Shown in pieces: positions 8,866 through 52,606 of a DNA stretch of 64,000 nt. The stretch lies in contig NC_017095.1 of the NCBI RefSeq assembly GCF_000235405.2, forward strand, positions 1,699,501-1,763,500. Direction: 5' to 3'. The notes beneath the pieces were generated by a model. That model was given only the letters and a program-made list of their open reading frames with translations. It searched no databases and was not told the DNA's origin. How positions within the stretch are numbered: position 1 is the stretch's first letter; each line of letters begins with the position of its first letter. Origin of the DNA: Fervidobacterium pennivorans DSM 9078 (GTDB lineage: Bacteria > Thermotogota > Thermotogae > Thermotogales > Fervidobacteriaceae). Both the position numbers and the translations under genes were made by a program.

Positions 8866-9144
8866 TTAGAACTCGACATGGAAATCTTTGTAATCTTGTG
8901 GAGGCAAGATTTCTTCGTCGTAATCGGTGATAGAACTCCAACCGTTCCCTTCCATGACCCTTTTGAAAAGTTCAGTTAGTTGCTCCGAATTTCCTCCAGC
9001 AACGATTGTTACACTCCCATCCATTTCATTCTTCACGTAACCTTTAACACCTATTGCACGTGCCACGTTCTTAACGAAATGTCTGAATCCCACACCCTGG
9101 ACAATACCACGAACATTCCACTTTTTCCAAATGGTGCCTTCCAT
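8866..9144 (-). CDS. acyP: Acylphosphatase
   Basis: Small enzyme hydrolysing acyl phosphates. The family signature GIVQGVGFRHFVKNVA holds the catalytic Arg, and VKGYVKNEMDGSVTIVAGG holds the catalytic Asn. The start is set at the ATG at 9144 because the AGGTGG site lies about ten bases in front; a GTG at 9153 is too close to that site. The protein has 92 residues, normal for the family. It heads the minus-strand acyP-purA-Mut7C group. Confidence 0.93.
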   Translation of the reverse strand: MEGTIWKKWNVRGIVQGVGFRHFVKNVARAIGVKGYVKNEMDGSVTIVAGGNSEQLTELFKRVMEGNGWSSITDYDEEILPPQDYKDFHVEF

Positions 9145-9239
9145 AACTTTCACACCACCTTTGGTCCATTTTCCTTCAAGGTTTTATAGTTTTTCCAAAA
9201 CACGCTTTTTTTATAACACAATTTTTTGAAAATTCAATC

Positions 9240-9267
9240 TTGAAATATCGAAGTTTTTGTGTATAAT
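9240..9267 (+). promoter_or_regulatory. Promoter of the methionine operon leader
   Basis: TTGAAA (9240-9245) and a perfect TATAAT (9262-9267) are separated by 16 bp. Transcription would start near 9274, about 50 bp before the leader peptide. Confidence 0.75.
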
Positions 9268-9322
9268 TCTTGCCAAAGGGAACATCAATCAAAAAGTAGT
9301 AAGAAGGAGTAATTTAAAGCTT

Positions 9323-9433
9323 ATGAAAGAAATCAAAAGGGCGAAAGTTTTAATAGTTGATGAATACCAGAGCAAACAAATAAGCATGATGGCTATGATG
9401 ATGTGGCGTACCGACCGTCCGGTATGCCCTTAG
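9323..9433 (+). CDS. Met-rich attenuation leader peptide
   Basis: A 36-codon reading frame behind an AAGGAG (9304-9309; spacing 13, rather long) and before aspartokinase. It starts MKEIKRAKVLIVDEY. Its striking part is QISMMAMMMWRT: five ATG codons within six (9386-9403), flanked by an Ile and a Thr codon, all aspartate-family amino acids. The frame runs into the first of three overlapping RNA hairpins and ends at TAG 9431-9433. This is the classical layout of a ribosome-stalling leader, here sensing charged methionine tRNA. The peptide itself probably has no function. The call is inference from sequence, but structure, codons and downstream genes agree. Confidence 0.8.
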   Translation: MKEIKRAKVLIVDEYQSKQISMMAMMMWRTDRPVCP

Positions 9434-9486
9434 TTTGTTGGAAAGCAAAAGGACGGTCGGGTGAGAAAATCACCCGACCTTTTTTT
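9406..9486 (+). promoter_or_regulatory. Transcription attenuator with exclusive hairpins
   Basis: Three alternative stems are visible. The pause stem pairs GCGTACCG (9406-9413) with CGGTATGC (9420-9427). The antiterminator pairs CCGACCGTCC (9411-9420) with GGACGGTCGG (9451-9460), ten perfect pairs. The terminator pairs GGTCGGGTGA (9455-9464) with TCACCCGACC (9470-9479). The antiterminator shares bases with both other stems, so forming it blocks both. A ribosome stalled on the Met codons would cover the left arm of the pause stem and favour read-through; free translation would favour termination. Confidence 0.82.
9455..9486 (+). terminator. Rho-independent attenuator terminator
   Basis: Perfect 10-bp GC-rich stem, loop GAAAA, followed by seven T (9480-9486). 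It lies 35 bp before the aspartokinase start codon, so it must act as a conditional terminator. Confidence 0.92.
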
Positions 9487-9520
9487 ATATCCAAAGAAAA
9501 GTTTTACAGGAGGTGATACC

Positions 9521-10921
9521 GTGAGCAAAATGGGTAGTTTTATTGTAGTTAAGTTCGGTGGTTCGAACTTCAAAAACTTTCAAGGCTACTGCGAAGTAAT
9601 AGCAAAAATTAAAGAAATACTCGAGTTTGAGAAGGAGAAAACGTTAGTGTTGGTTGTGAGTGCTGCTTATGGTATTACCGATAGATTGTTTAACGCGGTT
9701 AACAACTTTCAAAACATTGATGTTCGAACATTTTTGCGTGAACTTTACGATTTGCACTCTTCACTATTATCAATGAGTAATGATGGAAATTCGCATCAAA
9801 TAACAGAAGAGCTTAAGGATTTGGAAAACAAAGTCTTTGAACTAGAGAAAATATTCGATGCGGTTAAATTACTTCACAAGGTGCCTGATTTTGCAAAAGA
9901 TTTAATCATAAGCTATGGCGAACGTCTTAACGCATATGTGTTGCAAAAATTACTGCAAAAGGAAGGTCTTGATTTTGAACTTAAGATGCCGGAGGAGTGG
10001 ATAATAACCGATGGAAAATTTGGAAATGCATCTGTGCTCCTTGAACCCACAAAACACTTGATTGAGAAACGCTTGAATGATTGGAAAAACAATCATTCCA
10101 TAGTTCCTGGGTTTTATGGTGTATCGAAAGATGGTGATGTAACTCTCTTGGGACGTGGTGGGAGTGATTACACAGCCACTGTTTTGGCATATGCTTTAGA
10201 TGCAAATTATGTTGTACTTTTCAAAGATGTCAACGGTTTTCTTAGCGGTGACCCGAAAATTGTTGAAAATCCAATATTGCTTGAAAAACTCAGTTACGAT
10301 GAACTTGAGGAGCTCTCATATTTTGGTGCGAAGATTGTCCATTCAAATGCAGTGGAACCACTTAAGAACCGTTCAATACCATTGTATGTGTGCAGTTTTT
10401 CAGGAAATTTCAATCTCAGCAAATGCACGGTAGTTTCAAATGAAAAACATCGTTCTGAGAGGTGTGTGAAGAGTGTTTCGTTTACGGATGATGTAGCAAT
10501 TGTTCAGTTCTTTGGGGCAAATTTGGGACGGGTTCCAGGTGTATTGGGTGAGATTTCAAAAAGTATGGCACAATTTGGTTTAAATATTAAGTTCGTTATC
10601 ACATCCCAGACAGCGATAAATCTAATAGTTTCTAAAAAAGACCTCCCGGAAGTTATGAGAGTTGCTGAAACGCTTAGGCTTAGAGAAATAGAGAAAATTT
10701 CATACAGAACAGATAAGGCGCTTGTGGCAGTTGTAGGTTACGGTTTACTCGATACACATGGTATAGCAGCTAAAGTTTTTGGTGCGCTATCCAAAGGTGA
10801 GATAAACGTTGATATGATTTCCGCAGGTGCTTCGGAAGTTTCGATGTATTTCTTAGTTGATGCTCAGAACGTAAAAGACGCAGTTAGGATGGTCCACAAT
10901 GAACTTTTTGGTGAGGATTAA
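9521..10921 (+). CDS. lysC: Aspartokinase, monofunctional
   Basis: Phosphorylates aspartate, the entry step to Met, Thr, Ile and Lys. The N-terminal kinase domain begins VVKFGGSN (more often KFGGTS in the family) and has VVSAAYGITDRL, SYGERLNAYVL, LLGRGGSDYTA and DVNGFLSGDP. Two ACT domains follow (from about residues 335 and 405), so feedback control by an end product is likely. I chose the GTG at 9521 because AGGAGGTGAT lies just in front; this gives 466 residues. It is the first gene behind the Met attenuator. Confidence 0.93.
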   Translation: MSKMGSFIVVKFGGSNFKNFQGYCEVIAKIKEILEFEKEKTLVLVVSAAYGITDRLFNAVNNFQNIDVRTFLRELYDLHSSLLSMSNDGNSHQITEELKDLENKVFELEKIFDAVKLLHKVPDFAKDLIISYGERLNAYVLQKLLQKEGLDFELKMPEEWIITDGKFGNASVLLEPTKHLIEKRLNDWKNNHSIVPGFYGVSKDGDVTLLGRGGSDYTATVLAYALDANYVVLFKDVNGFLSGDPKIVENPILLEKLSYDELEELSYFGAKIVHSNAVEPLKNRSIPLYVCSFSGNFNLSKCTVVSNEKHRSERCVKSVSFTDDVAIVQFFGANLGRVPGVLGEISKSMAQFGLNIKFVITSQTAINLIVSKKDLPEVMRVAETLRLREIEKISYRTDKALVAVVGYGLLDTHGIAAKVFGALSKGEINVDMISAGASEVSMYFLVDAQNVKDAVRMVHNELFGED

Positions 10922-10942: not shown

Positions 10943-12364
10943 ATGAAGTTGGAAAACTTAAGAAGCATAGAGGAAATCAACAAGAAAATTGCCAGGGGAG
11001 AAGCGGTTGTTCTTACAGCTGAAGAAGTTGTAAAACTCGCTAAAGAAGAAGGTATCAAGAAAGTTGCAAAAAAAGTTGATGTCGTGACCACAGGAACATT
11101 TGCTCCTATGTGCTCCAGTGGGGCGTTTATAAACTTTGGTCACACGATGCCCCCTATGAGAATGGAAAAGATAAAGCTTGCTGGTGTTGAGGTTTACGGC
11201 GGACTAGCTGCTGTCGATGGATACATTGGTGCAACGCAAGAATCAGAGTTCGACAAAACGTTTGGTGGCGGGCACGTTATAGAGATGCTCATAAGAGGGG
11301 AAAACCTCTTGCTTGAAGCTTACGGAAAAGGTACAGATTGCTATCCGGGGAAGTATTTCAGAGGATATATCAACAAGGATATGATAAACGATTTCTTCCT
11401 ATTCAATCCACGAAACGCTTATCAAAACTACGCTGCAGCTACAAATAGTTCTGATAAGACACTTTATACCTACATGGGTAAGTTGTTGCCAAATTACGGC
11501 AATGTGAATTATTCAACATCGGGAGAGCTCAGTCCGTTACTTAAAGACCCGAAAATGTTAACGATAGGTATTGGGACAAGAATATTCCTCGGAGGTGCGG
11601 TCGGATACGTTGCTTGGTATGGAACGCAGTTCAGAACGCAAGTAAAGGAAAGCGAACATGGTGTTCCTCTTGTTCCTGCACGCACGCTTGCACTGATTGG
11701 TGATGCTAAGAAAATGGAACCAAAATTTGTAAAAGGAGCATACTTTAAAAACTACGGAGTGACACTATTTGTTGGTGTTGGTGTCCCGATACCAATCTTA
11801 AACGAAGAAATAGCCTACTATGTAAGTCTTTCTAACGAAGAGCTCTACACAGAGATAAAAGATTATTCTAATCTGGAAAGACCTACTGTTGGTGTGGTAA
11901 GTTACGCACAACTAAAGTCAGGTAAGGTTGAAATAAACGGTAAAAAGGTAAGAACCACATCACTTTCGAGTTTAGAAAAAGCCAGAGAGATAGCCCATAT
12001 TCTCAAAAAATGGATACTAACAGGCAACTTCTTTTTGACGAGTCCATCGGTAATGCTTGATGAAGAACGAATGCTGAAAAACCTTTCAAAAGTTGAGCAG
12101 ATTGTTCCTCACTTGGAAAATGAGAAAGTCGAATATGTTAAGGGTGTGTTTAATCCAAAAGATAAACTGAACGAACACAAAGAATGTGTCAATTGTGGTG
12201 CCTGTGTTTCGGTATGTAACCAAGAAGCACTATATTGGGATGGAGATAAGGTGAAATTTGATGAGTCAAAGTGCGTATATTGTATGTTGTGTACCGATAC
12301 ATGTCCTGTTGGACTGAAATTACCGGATGAAAAGTCAGAGACAAAATTTGAAATGCCTTATTGA
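10943..12364 (+). CDS. DUF39 homocysteine biosynthesis protein with ferredoxin domain
   Basis: The N-terminal 390 residues match DUF39 (COG1900): EINKKIARGEAVVLTAEE, the TGTFAPMCSSGAF segment, GGLAAVDGYIGATQ and GIGTRIFLGGAVGYVAW. The C-terminus carries two [4Fe-4S] motifs, CVNCGACVSVC and CVYCMLCTDTC. In Methanosarcina acetivorans COG1900 with a ferredoxin partner and COG2122 is needed to make homocysteine from aspartate semialdehyde and sulfide; here ferredoxin is fused and COG2122 is the next gene. The ATG at 10943 follows GGGGGAG very closely, so the TTG at 10949 may be the real start. It lies 21 bp after lysC. Confidence 0.87.
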   Translation: MKLENLRSIEEINKKIARGEAVVLTAEEVVKLAKEEGIKKVAKKVDVVTTGTFAPMCSSGAFINFGHTMPPMRMEKIKLAGVEVYGGLAAVDGYIGATQESEFDKTFGGGHVIEMLIRGENLLLEAYGKGTDCYPGKYFRGYINKDMINDFFLFNPRNAYQNYAAATNSSDKTLYTYMGKLLPNYGNVNYSTSGELSPLLKDPKMLTIGIGTRIFLGGAVGYVAWYGTQFRTQVKESEHGVPLVPARTLALIGDAKKMEPKFVKGAYFKNYGVTLFVGVGVPIPILNEEIAYYVSLSNEELYTEIKDYSNLERPTVGVVSYAQLKSGKVEINGKKVRTTSLSSLEKAREIAHILKKWILTGNFFLTSPSVMLDEERMLKNLSKVEQIVPHLENEKVEYVKGVFNPKDKLNEHKECVNCGACVSVCNQEALYWDGDKVKFDESKCVYCMLCTDTCPVGLKLPDEKSETKFEMPY

Positions 12365-12392: not shown

Positions 12393-13235
12393 ATGGAGTT
12401 TGAATTCGAGGGAAAAATGCGAAAGAAACACTATGGGTATGTTGGGCAAGTTGATAAATTTCAAGAAATTCAGATGAGTCAAAGGAAGCTTAGAATCGTC
12501 AAAAAGTTTTACAGAAATTACTACTCGGAAAGATTCACAAGATTTTACGTTAAATACAAATACACCGACTTAGCAATAGGTGTTGATAAATTCAACCTCC
12601 AGATGCTCGATGGAGTTTATGATTTAGTTAGGAACCACTACAAAGAGCTTGAAAGATTAAGAGAATTCAACAAGGAGTTCTTTGAATCTTTCAAACCTGT
12701 TGATGTTTCTCTTTTTCAACCAATAACAGATATAATCCTCGCAATGGCTGAAGCGTCTAAATTAGCAGGAGTAGGACCGATGGCTGCCGTTGCTGGAGCT
12801 TTTGCTGAATCGGTTGGAAAGTATCTGTTGAAGATACACGGAAGCAAAGAGGTTATTGTAGAAAATGGTGGTGATATTTATTTAAACGTTCGAAGTGAGG
12901 TAAGAATAGGAATTTTTGCAAATTTTGATAGTGAATTCAACAAACTCTCTATTATTTTAGGACCTGGTGAATATGGGGTATGTACTTCTTCTGGAAAAAT
13001 AGGCCATTCGGTAAGTTTTGGGAATGCCGATGCAGCTTGTGTAATAGCAAGGAGTGCAGTGATTGCTGATGCTTTCGCAACGAAATACGGGAATTTAATA
13101 AAAAGCGAGAAAGACTTTGAAAAGGTCTTGGGGCTTGTCAAGGATGATATCGATGAAAAAAGATATATATTGGGTGTATTGTTTGTTGTTAAGAATAAAC
13201 TACTTGTTTACGGAAATGTGAGACTTTCAGTTTAG
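12393..13235 (+). CDS. UPF0280 (COG2122) family protein
   Basis: ApbE-like family required, with COG1900, for homocysteine synthesis in anaerobes. Visible conserved parts are MAEASKLAGVGPMAAVAGAF, VENGGDIYL, and CTSSGKIGHSVSFGNADAAC. The start is the ATG at 12393 behind GAGGGA, 28 bp after the DUF39 gene; the protein has 280 residues. Biochemical role is unresolved in the family; a sulfur-transfer or reductive step is likely. Context in this Met operon fits well. Confidence 0.86.
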   Translation: MEFEFEGKMRKKHYGYVGQVDKFQEIQMSQRKLRIVKKFYRNYYSERFTRFYVKYKYTDLAIGVDKFNLQMLDGVYDLVRNHYKELERLREFNKEFFESFKPVDVSLFQPITDIILAMAEASKLAGVGPMAAVAGAFAESVGKYLLKIHGSKEVIVENGGDIYLNVRSEVRIGIFANFDSEFNKLSIILGPGEYGVCTSSGKIGHSVSFGNADAACVIARSAVIADAFATKYGNLIKSEKDFEKVLGLVKDDIDEKRYILGVLFVVKNKLLVYGNVRLSV

Positions 13236-13275
13236 TTTTAGTTTTGTAGATTGTAAAACTTTGGAGGTGGGGAAG

Positions 13276-14217
13276 TTGAAGGTTACGGAAATGGTCAAAG
13301 AAAGAAGGATTATATCCATAGAGATAATCCCACCAAAACGTGGCGAGGATGTTGAAAATATCTACAGAACCCTGGATAAGCTTATGAACTATGACATTTC
13401 ATTTATAAGTATTACAAGGCATCCTGTCGAAGTAGATTACATTGAATACGAAGACAAAATTGTTAAGGTTCATAAGGTCAAAAGGCCTGGAACACTTGGC
13501 TTAACTGCTGCGTTGATGAATAGATACAGAATTGATGTTGTCCCTCATCTTATTTGTGTTGGGATGAGTAAATTTGAAATGGAGGATATGTTGATAGACC
13601 TGGATATAATGGGGGTTGATAATGTTTTCGTTATACGTGGTGAAACTGCCTCAAGTGTTGAGAATTATAACAAGGGAGATTACAAGTACGCTGTTGAGCT
13701 GGTAAGACAAATAAAAGACCTGAACATGGGAAAATACCTCTACACATCAGCTAAGCCGACAAATTTTTGCGTAGGGGTGGCGGGATACCCAGAAAAGCAC
13801 TACGAATCCCCAAACCTGGAAACTGATTTGAAATTTCTCAAGCAAAAAGTAGATGCAGGAGCGGGTTATATCATCACACAAATGGTCTTCGATGCACAAG
13901 TTTATAAAGACTTCGTTGAACGTTGTCGAAGTATAGGCATAAATGTCCCAATAATTCCAGGAGTGAAACCTGTAGTAAGCAAAAGTTCAGTGTTTAACAT
14001 TCCAAAGAAATTTTTTGTGACCATACCTCAAAGGTTTGTTGAGGCAATCGATAATGCGAAGACAAAGGAAGAAGAGTTTAAAGTAGGAATACGTTTTACA
14101 GTCGAGCTTGTTGAAAAGCTTATCGAATACAGTGCTCCAGGTATACACATTTTTACAATGGGGCGTGGAGAGGAGAGCTGTGAAGTAATTAAGCATACTC
14201 AAAGCATACTCAAATGA
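13276..14217 (+). CDS. metF: Methylenetetrahydrofolate reductase
   Basis: Reduces methylene-THF to methyl-THF, the methyl donor for homocysteine methylation. The start ISIEIIPPKRGEDVENIY is the FAD-binding first strand of the TIM barrel. TAALMNRYRIDVVPHLIC, DNVFVIRGE, VGVAGYPEKHYE and IITQMVFDA are all typical. The TTG at 13276 lies eight bases after GGAGG and gives 313 residues. It follows UPF0280 by 40 bp and completes the methionine logic of the operon. Confidence 0.92.
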   Translation: MKVTEMVKERRIISIEIIPPKRGEDVENIYRTLDKLMNYDISFISITRHPVEVDYIEYEDKIVKVHKVKRPGTLGLTAALMNRYRIDVVPHLICVGMSKFEMEDMLIDLDIMGVDNVFVIRGETASSVENYNKGDYKYAVELVRQIKDLNMGKYLYTSAKPTNFCVGVAGYPEKHYESPNLETDLKFLKQKVDAGAGYIITQMVFDAQVYKDFVERCRSIGINVPIIPGVKPVVSKSSVFNIPKKFFVTIPQRFVEAIDNAKTKEEEFKVGIRFTVELVEKLIEYSAPGIHIFTMGRGEESCEVIKHTQSILK

Positions 14218-14309: not shown

Positions 14310-15626
14310 TTGGTAAAACAATTTGTGATAGAATATTTTCAACACGTGGTTGAACAGCTGTTGATTAATGCAAGGGTGGGATGTGAATTGGCTGAGTTCG
14401 AAAAGCTTGGTAGACTTTCAAAGATTAGGCAAATAATTCGTAATGTTTTTTTTGACAACGTGAAGCTCTCTTACGGGTGCACAGAACCTGTTGCTGTTGG
14501 GTTATCTGTCGCCGTGGGGAAAGATTATCTGAAGGGTGAACTGGAAAGGTTAGAAATAGTAATGGATAGAAACACTTACAAAAACGGTTTGGAAGTTGGT
14601 ATTCCAGGAACTCATCTACACGGCTTTGAAATTGCAGCGATGCTGGCTTATTTAGTAGGTGATTCCAAACTTGGGCTCGAGGTCTTTAAAAACGTGACAA
14701 CCGAAGTGATTTCTAAAGCGTATGAGATGAAGGATAAGGTTACTGTGAAATACGAAAACGATATGCGCTTGCACATAAAAACAAAGCTTGTGGGAGAGAA
14801 CGAGGTAATTGTTGAGATAACAGATTCTCATGATAATGTTACTAGAATCGTTGTGGATGGAGATGAGATACTGAATGTACAATCGAGTGTGAATTTCAAA
14901 AAAGAAACAGCACGAAGTATCACACTGAACGAGATATTTGATTATGTGCAAAATCCTGAAGAAGATGTCTTAGAGATTGTTAGACAAGCTATCCAATACA
15001 ATGTCGAGATTTCAAGAATAGGTTTGGATACACAGGGAAATTTTGGAAGAATACTTGAAGGTATACCACGGTACGTTGCTGCTGGTGTTGACCAAAGAAT
15101 GAGTGGAGCATTATTACCTGTGATGACTGTTGCTGGCAGTGGAAACCAGGGGATTTCTTGTATAGTCCCTGTAGCAGTTGTTGCGGATGAACTTGGTGTA
15201 TCGCAAGATAAGAAAGAAAAAGCAATTTTGCTTAGTATACTTGTTACCATTTACATAAAAGCTTACACAGGGATGTTAACCCCAATATGTGGAGCTGGTA
15301 GCATAGCTTCGGCAGGTGCGGCAGCTGGTATTGTGTATCTGAAGGATGGAACAGTCGAGCAAATCAAGAACTCCATCAACAACGTACTTGCTACATTGTT
15401 TGGTATGACGTGCGATGGTGCAAAGAGAAGTTGCGCGCTAAAAGCAAGTATAGGTACTCAGATGGCATTGAACTCAGTCAAGTTGTCTTTGAACGATACA
15501 AACATACCTTGCGGAAACGGATTTGCCGCAAAAGATGTGGAAGAAACTATAAGGAGATTGGAACTTCTGACCAATTCTCTTAGAAACTTTGATGAGGATG
15601 TTATAAATTTTATAGGACATTGCTAG
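14310..15626 (+). CDS. cyuA: L-cysteine desulfidase (CyuA / UPF0597 family)
   Basis: Fe-S enzyme splitting cysteine into pyruvate, ammonia and sulfide. The family motif SYGCTEPVAVGLSVAVG is near residue 53; further cysteines for a [4Fe-4S] cluster lie in CIVPVAVVADELGV, LTPICGAGSIASAG and MTCDGAKRSCALK. Length is normal at 438. The TTG start lies behind an AGGA. It is 92 bp after metF on the same strand and would supply sulfide to the homocysteine-forming proteins. Related L-serine dehydratases share the fold, but the GCTEP motif favours this call. Confidence 0.85.
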   Translation: MVKQFVIEYFQHVVEQLLINARVGCELAEFEKLGRLSKIRQIIRNVFFDNVKLSYGCTEPVAVGLSVAVGKDYLKGELERLEIVMDRNTYKNGLEVGIPGTHLHGFEIAAMLAYLVGDSKLGLEVFKNVTTEVISKAYEMKDKVTVKYENDMRLHIKTKLVGENEVIVEITDSHDNVTRIVVDGDEILNVQSSVNFKKETARSITLNEIFDYVQNPEEDVLEIVRQAIQYNVEISRIGLDTQGNFGRILEGIPRYVAAGVDQRMSGALLPVMTVAGSGNQGISCIVPVAVVADELGVSQDKKEKAILLSILVTIYIKAYTGMLTPICGAGSIASAGAAAGIVYLKDGTVEQIKNSINNVLATLFGMTCDGAKRSCALKASIGTQMALNSVKLSLNDTNIPCGNGFAAKDVEETIRRLELLTNSLRNFDEDVINFIGHC

Positions 15627-52394: not shown

Positions 52395-52606
52395 AAATAA
52401 CCACATCCCACATAGTGTATGGGAACGCCGGTGCAAATCCGGGGCTGCCCAGCAACCGTGAGTGGGGACGAAATCCGCATAAAAGCCACTGGCTCAGGTT
52501 TTTGAGCTGGGAAGGCGTGGAGAGTAGGATGATCCACGAGCCGGGAGACCGACTATGTGGGAATCAATTCCCGACAGCTCGGGCTGTTTGGGAAATTTTT
52601 TCTTTG
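52395..52606 (+). promoter_or_regulatory. Cobalamin (AdoCbl-type) riboswitch
   Basis: The conserved core is present in order: GCCGGTGCAAATCCGG, GGCTGCCCAGCAACCGTGAG, AAGCCACTGG, CTGGGAAGGC, and the B12-box-like GATCCACGAGCCGGGAGACCG (split around 52531-52552). CCCACATAGT near 52408 and ACTATGTGGG near 52553 close the outer stem P1. A terminator forms the expression platform. It would switch off the cobamide operon when cobalamin is plentiful. The operon now begins 1.1 kb further on, behind an inserted IS. Confidence 0.93.
52566..52602 (+). terminator. Riboswitch expression-platform terminator
   Basis: AATTCCCGACAGC pairs with GCTGTTTGGGAAATT (one or two bulges) around TCGG, followed by six T. 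Confidence 0.75.

Follow-up and report, generated by a model that had tools for sequence, protein, structure and literature searches.

A putative methionine-codon transcription attenuator before the aspartokinase operon of Fervidobacterium pennivorans, with related and re-coded leaders across Thermotogota

The aspartokinase operon of Fervidobacterium pennivorans DSM 9078 is preceded by a short open reading frame rich in methionine codons and by stems that could pair in alternative ways, which raises the question of whether its transcription is controlled by ribosomes that sense the charging of tRNA-Met. We analyzed this locus within a window of 64,000 nucleotides (the whole stretch of DNA studied, to whose first letter all coordinates without a locus prefix refer), together with related genomes. 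The leader region contains the following features:

9240 to 9267, + strand: sigma-70-like promoter, TTGAAA N16 TATAAT, 11/12 matches
9305 to 9309, + strand: Shine-Dalgarno-like AGGAG of the leader, 13 nt 5′ of the ATG, a long spacing
9323 to 9433, + strand: leader ORF of 36 codons, MKEIKRAKVLIVDEYQSKQISMMAMMMWRTDRPVCP, from ATG 9323 to stop TAG 9431-9433
9386 to 9403, + strand: control codons ATG ATG GCT ATG ATG ATG, conserved across families
9405 to 9428, + strand: pause hairpin (segments 1:2) of 9 bp, 9405-9413 with 9420-9428
9411 to 9420, + strand: antiterminator 5′ arm (segment 2), CCGACCGTCC, pairing with 9451-9460
9451 to 9460, + strand: antiterminator 3′ arm (segment 3), GGACGGTCGG, pairing with 9411-9420
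9455 to 9486, + strand: intrinsic terminator (segments 3:4), whose pairs covary in the wider group

The cluster of control codons lies 9 codons from the leader stop. The antiterminator is a perfect helix of 10 bp, matched by 0/500 shuffles, and the terminator is a perfect stem of 10 bp, GGTCGGGTGA-GAAAA-TCACCCGACC (9455-9479), with a T7 tail at 9480-9486. Because 9455-9460 is common to both, the two structures are mutually exclusive. The leader of 216 nt folds at -56.3 kcal/mol, compared with -40.1 +/- 3.8 in dinucleotide shuffles (z -4.3). As the upstream neighbor is a divergent acylphosphatase gene (8866-9153, minus strand), we ruled out that the terminator marks the end of that gene. The promoter sequence is near-identical in the upstream regions of three relatives that were compared (G007, G008 and G006). 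The original prediction, made from sequence alone, had named the promoter, leader, pause stem, antiterminator and terminator, all of which held, with coordinates exact or within 1-2 bases.

Downstream of the leader, we identified the following features:

9508 to 9514, + strand: Shine-Dalgarno AGGAGGT of aspartokinase (from the sequence)
9521 to 10921, + strand: aspartokinase with AA_kinase and ACT domains, GTG start 9521 (Pfam, NCBIfam), the start being a small correction to the original prediction
10943 to 12364, + strand: HcyBio (DUF39) homocysteine biosynthesis protein with a 4Fe-4S domain (Pfam PF01837, E 4e-146)
12393 to 13235, + strand: UPF0280 / PRK04334-like protein (NCBIfam NF003323, E 1e-60, under the curated cut-off)
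13261 to 14217, + strand: methylenetetrahydrofolate reductase, metF-like (Pfam PF02219)
14310 to 15626, + strand: serine dehydratase alpha / cysteine desulfidase-like gene (Pfam PF03313)

HcyBio, its ferredoxin domain and the UPF0280-like neighbor form what we take to be a sulfur-insertion route from aspartate semialdehyde to homocysteine. On this basis, we regard aspartokinase-HcyBio-UPF0280-metF as a methionine operon, for which Met codons are the expected control codons. The serine dehydratase alpha / cysteine desulfidase-like gene also lies 3′ of metF in four other genomes (G008, G006, G002 and G005) and is possibly the last gene of the operon. Elsewhere in the window, at 52396-52571, Rfam places a cobalamin riboswitch (96.9 bits).

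The stems are supported by covariation. Across eight Fervidobacteriaceae, 80/80 cells of the antiterminator alignment are paired and 3 pairs changed on both sides, giving a covariation score that was reached by 0/500 shuffles and by no slid partner; the other seven pairs are invariant, which is neutral evidence. Within the wider group, 9/11 terminator pairs are doubly changed. The pause stem is mostly kept in relatives but has moved or is weak in part of them, and its covariation is weaker. Using a helix finder, we located an antiterminator of 4-15 bp at 62 sites in many families, where it re-forms from unrelated sequences; at 53/62 sites, 5% or fewer of the shuffles match it. The distance from the last control codon to the antiterminator has a median of 7 nt in this survey. 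The helix finder missed the antiterminators expected in G022 and G086trp, and one site (L178) remains unresolved. All these sites are related by descent, so that counts of covariation, spacing and reading frame are not counts of independent events.

Leaders of this kind are present in most families of the phylum. The HcyBio gene occurs in 35 genomes of the class, and upstream DNA is visible in 33, G038 and G040 being left out because a contig end cuts it off. A Met leader with a terminator heads the HcyBio operon in 22/33, and a SAM-I riboswitch occupies the same place in 3/33 (G093, G100 and G102, all of family f9). By scan, and for most also by eye, neither a Met leader nor SAM-I was found in the other 8/33 (G001, G023, G026, G028, G030, G032, G034 and G051), which include a genome of the same genus (G001) and several of family f2. 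Within the genus and family, the core MMAMMM or MMPMMM is kept in G006, G007, G008, G002, G005, G009 and G013, among which the N-terminal part of the leader peptide is mostly unrelated and the Met core constant; other families carry the clusters MMIM, VMAMIM, MIM, MMM and MMNTMMMRMM. An exact-motif search for ATGATGNNNATGATGATG over the phylum recovered true leaders in Fervidobacteriaceae, and the other inspected matches lay mostly within ordinary proteins. An open frame of at least 15 codons precedes the control codons in 53/57 related leaders, compared with 6 and 7 for the two alternative frames, and a start preceded by a Shine-Dalgarno sequence is found in-frame in 46 of them, compared with 1 and 0. 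These frame counts show that in-frame reading of the leader is under selection; translation itself is inferred, in the absence of translation data. The original prediction would have been refuted by Met codons that were not conserved or by stems without compensatory changes. Neither was observed: the clusters recur in 22/33 operons amid a drifting peptide, and the antiterminator and terminator show 3 and 9/11 doubly changed pairs. In G007, an IS110-family transposase gene (L120:2190-3407) lies between an intact Met leader and aspartokinase.

We searched for further copies using RNA models: R1, built from Fervidobacteriaceae leaders, and R2, whose training set (alignment A2) was limited to leaders of aspartokinase, metH and HcyBio genes and which was run over 103 genomes. 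The E-values of these models, and of R3 described below, are rough, and for none of the three did we accept as leaders any matches confined to the terminator half (such as model positions 64-114). R2 recovered unseen leaders before metF (L135) and aspartokinase (L144), as well as before metQ at, among others, L137-L143, L145, L146, L148, L149, L177 and L182; R1 added metQ leaders at L167 and L169-L171. Leaders also precede the O-acetylhomoserine sulfhydrylase gene metY, at L168 (via R1) and L181 (via R2). Gene identity was checked by NCBIfam or Pfam for metQ of L137, L167 and L149, metY of L168, metF of L135 and aspartokinase of L144, and the remaining metQ and metY assignments were judged from common N-terminal sequence. 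One leader without an adjacent Met gene (L147, in G064) was excluded from the support. In seven Thermotoga-like genomes (G025, G027, G029, G031, G033, G035 and G037), a Met leader precedes a lone ORF of ~171 aa with no Pfam match, which adjoins encapsulin and ferritin-like genes (L197:2500-3153, with a Met leader and terminator; orthologues at L190 and L198-L202); the leader predicts a methionine-linked role for this unknown protein.

Run over 20 genomes from outside Thermotogota, R2 had a single strong match (E 2e-14), in Coprothermobacter platensis, and one further, partial match that lacks the codon half. The Coprothermobacter Met leader (SMIMCGNALGGAPGV, L039:5511-5870) precedes metH-aspartokinase-HcyBio-UPF0280-metF, as in Pseudothermotoga, and the whole operon may have been transferred. 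A metagenome-assembled genome labeled Acidobacteriota contains a Thermotogota-like aspartokinase-HcyBio operon with a Met leader (L035, JAQURD010000003.1; HcyBio 62% identity), and we consider this contig likely to be mis-binned.

The matches of R2 also included leaders of TrpB-like genes in which TGG TGG TGG takes the control position. Such WWW leaders, of the same layout, precede TrpB2-like genes across Thermotogota (L179, L180, L185, L187, L188, L192, L195, L238-L241, L243-L246, L248, L250, L255, L259, L260, L265 and L266), as well as trpD (L249, L251), trpE (L184, L258) and trpB (L183, L257, L264). A further model, R3, added more of these copies ahead of trpB2, trpD, trpE and trpB, and others ahead of ABC substrate-binding genes. 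R3 was trained on Met and Trp leaders together, and its Trp matches are therefore not an independent discovery, as those of R2 were. DAHP synthase is preceded by a YYYY leader at L256 and by an FWYY leader at L263, both of which are likely to be aromatic amino-acid attenuators. Leaders rich in Trp and Tyr (FWW and YYWWF) precede ABC_sub_bind substrate-binding proteins at L196 and L261, where they could point to uptake of tryptophan or aromatic compounds. NCBIfam confirmed TrpB2 of L179, and Pfam confirmed trpD of L249 and DAHP synthase of L256, the others being judged from sequence. One exception is a WWW leader in G047 (L247), which stands before a 4Fe-4S protein that has no obvious connection with tryptophan. 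The R3 matches L254 and L262 look spurious, and L253 is undecided. No trpA was found in the whole genome G000, so that a Trp leader is not expected there, and R3 gave no match in G000 at E 0.002. A match between codon identity and the downstream pathway is a prediction of ribosome-mediated attenuation by tRNA charging, and the tracking of the downstream gene by the codons is the strongest evidence here that charging is sensed. A bolder reading, which may as easily prove wrong as right, is that a single re-codable ancestral scaffold spread by duplication and transfer, its control codons being rewritten for Met, Trp or Tyr/Phe according to the operon. The Met and Trp scaffolds may share descent or may have converged. 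If the bolder reading is true, the scaffold is a natural codon-swap experiment on attenuator evolution.

Based on these observations, we consider it very likely that the leader is a ribosome-mediated transcription attenuator reading tRNA-Met charging. The parts, conservation, covariation, spacing and gene context are shown; ribosome stalling, the tRNA-Met signal and the direction of regulation are inferred, without expression data. According to this model, RNA polymerase would start near 9274 and a ribosome would translate the leader behind it. With ample Met-tRNA, the ribosome would reach the stop at 9431 and cover segment 2 (9411-9420), leaving segment 3 to pair with segment 4 in the terminator (9455-9479), and transcription would stop near 9486. 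With scarce Met-tRNA, the ribosome would stall on the last ATG codons and cover the 5′ arm of the pause stem, freeing segment 2 to pair with segment 3 (9451-9460); no terminator would form, and polymerase would read on into aspartokinase-HcyBio-UPF0280-metF. A shortage of methionine would thus open the operon. A stall on the first two ATG codons would leave the pause stem free and is not predicted to antiterminate, an effect inferred to be within reach of the last three only, which fits the widest conservation of the Met codons nearest the antiterminator. That three related operons carry SAM-I at the same place marks this operon as one subject to methionine-linked control. The original prediction inferred that tRNA-Met charging controls the operon, an inference that is supported by conservation, covariation, the copies before met genes and the re-coded copies; its label of a translational attenuator failed, since the mechanism would be transcription attenuation.

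We folded the leader with ViennaRNA at 37 and 65 °C, assuming a ribosome footprint that extends 12 nt past the first base of the A-site. As long as segment 4 has not been transcribed, the antiterminator has a mean pair probability of 0.96 with a stall at the first Met codon and 0.54 with a stall at the last; at this stage, it is impossible with the ribosome at the stop but forms without any ribosome. In the full leader, the terminator is favored at equilibrium in every ribosome position tested. The geometry, with its median spacing of 7 nt, is compatible with the proposed ribosome positions, but equilibrium folding by itself does not reproduce the switch, which must therefore be kinetic (co-transcriptional). 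Kinetic switching is the accepted view for classical attenuators. Further points against the model are the unusually long Shine-Dalgarno spacing of the leader in the window and the lack of a leader in some related operons, among them that of G001 and several of family f2.

Three other readings deserve consideration. The leader could encode an arrest peptide, so that the ribosome is halted by its own nascent MMxMMM(W/R/C) chain together with a ligand, methionine or SAM, in the manner of TnaC or CGS1 and not by empty tRNA-Met. That a Met-x-Met core recurs across families with R, C, W or Y as the next residue speaks for this possibility. However, an arrest peptide needs a fixed sequence, whereas the core varies (MMAMMM, MMPMMM, MMIM, MIM, MMNTMMMRMM), and this layout is also found carrying WWW ahead of trp genes and YYYY ahead of DAHP synthase. 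Moreover, if a ligand caused the stall, a biosynthetic operon would open while its product is plentiful, which is the wrong direction, and we hold this reading to be very unlikely.

It is all but excluded that a SAM riboswitch or T-box aptamer overlaps the leader and that the ORF is incidental, even though SAM-I controls the orthologous operon in the three family f9 genomes. The region has no Rfam match even at E 0.1, its best score being a chance-level L20 leader (18 bits against a cut-off of 58.7 bits), a whole-genome search of G000 found no SAM-I, and the frame of the leader ORF is strongly selected. Riboswitch and T-box identities were accordingly rejected, with no Rfam match to a SAM aptamer, to Stem I / specifier or to a T-box antiterminator. 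There is hardly more room for a plain constitutive terminator or small-RNA gene without regulated read-through. In its favor, the terminator is strong and prevails at equilibrium in all ribosome states tested; but it would silence an operon that has no other clear promoter, and the antiterminator, spacing and codons are conserved and covarying. The intact leader of G007, despite its IS110-family insertion, says little either way by itself.

Regarding previous work, our searches of the open-access literature brought up no ribosomal attenuator specific for Met. A survey whose attenuator counts cover his, leu, thr and trp, with ilv and phe also mentioned, reports no ribosome-mediated attenuators in Thermotogota, and suggests that attenuation possibly originated in gamma-proteobacteria and has seldom been transferred (PMC3766115). 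No RNA element is reported before methionine operons in Actinobacteria (PMC1262725), and the words attenuation and methionine are absent from the main text of the T. maritima transcriptome study (PMC3636130). The Met/Trp/Tyr leader switch of Thermotogota seems, as far as open-access literature goes, to be undescribed. The claim of novelty in Thermotogota made in the original prediction holds within the same scope, and priority is uncertain, since a survey that Lopatovskaya and colleagues published in 2010 (cited in PMC4833913) was outside it. The Met form, in most Thermotogota families and in Coprothermobacter, widens the amino acids and lineages of attenuation. AUG doubles as the start codon, and Met-tRNA exists in initiator and elongator forms; what a Met attenuator would read is therefore the elongator tRNA-Met in particular. 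With Met, Trp and aromatic versions of one layout available, it can readily be tested whether specificity is set by codon identity alone.

Among known systems, the SAM-I riboswitch (S-box, RF00162), found directly before the orthologous aspartokinase-HcyBio operon in G093, G100 and G102, binds SAM directly and without a leader peptide; it is absent from the leader region and from the whole genome. At the family f9 loci L094, L112 and L099, SAM-I takes the position that the Met leader occupies in other families, a sensor replacement. Since the orthologous operon uses SAM-I in other genomes, tRNA and SAM sensing of one pathway can be directly compared. A Met-specific T-box, as in Firmicutes, would likewise sense tRNA-Met charging and control termination, but it binds uncharged tRNA and needs no translation; the Rfam search of the leader region gave no riboswitch or T-box match. 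The uORFC-type motifs before cysS and aroF (PMC8632094) similarly combine a short ORF carrying codons for the pathway amino acid with an attenuation-like leader; they differ in host (Rhodobacterales, Acholeplasma) and amino acid, and no sequence link has been shown. The enterobacterial attenuators of trp, his, leu, thr, ilv and phe likewise have a leader ORF with codons for the product, and an antiterminator and U-tailed terminator that have a segment in common, as well as a pause stem, for which the helix of 9 bp seen here is a putative counterpart. In contrast with these, the control codon here is AUG (Met), the host belongs to Thermotogota, and the pause stem is variable among relatives.
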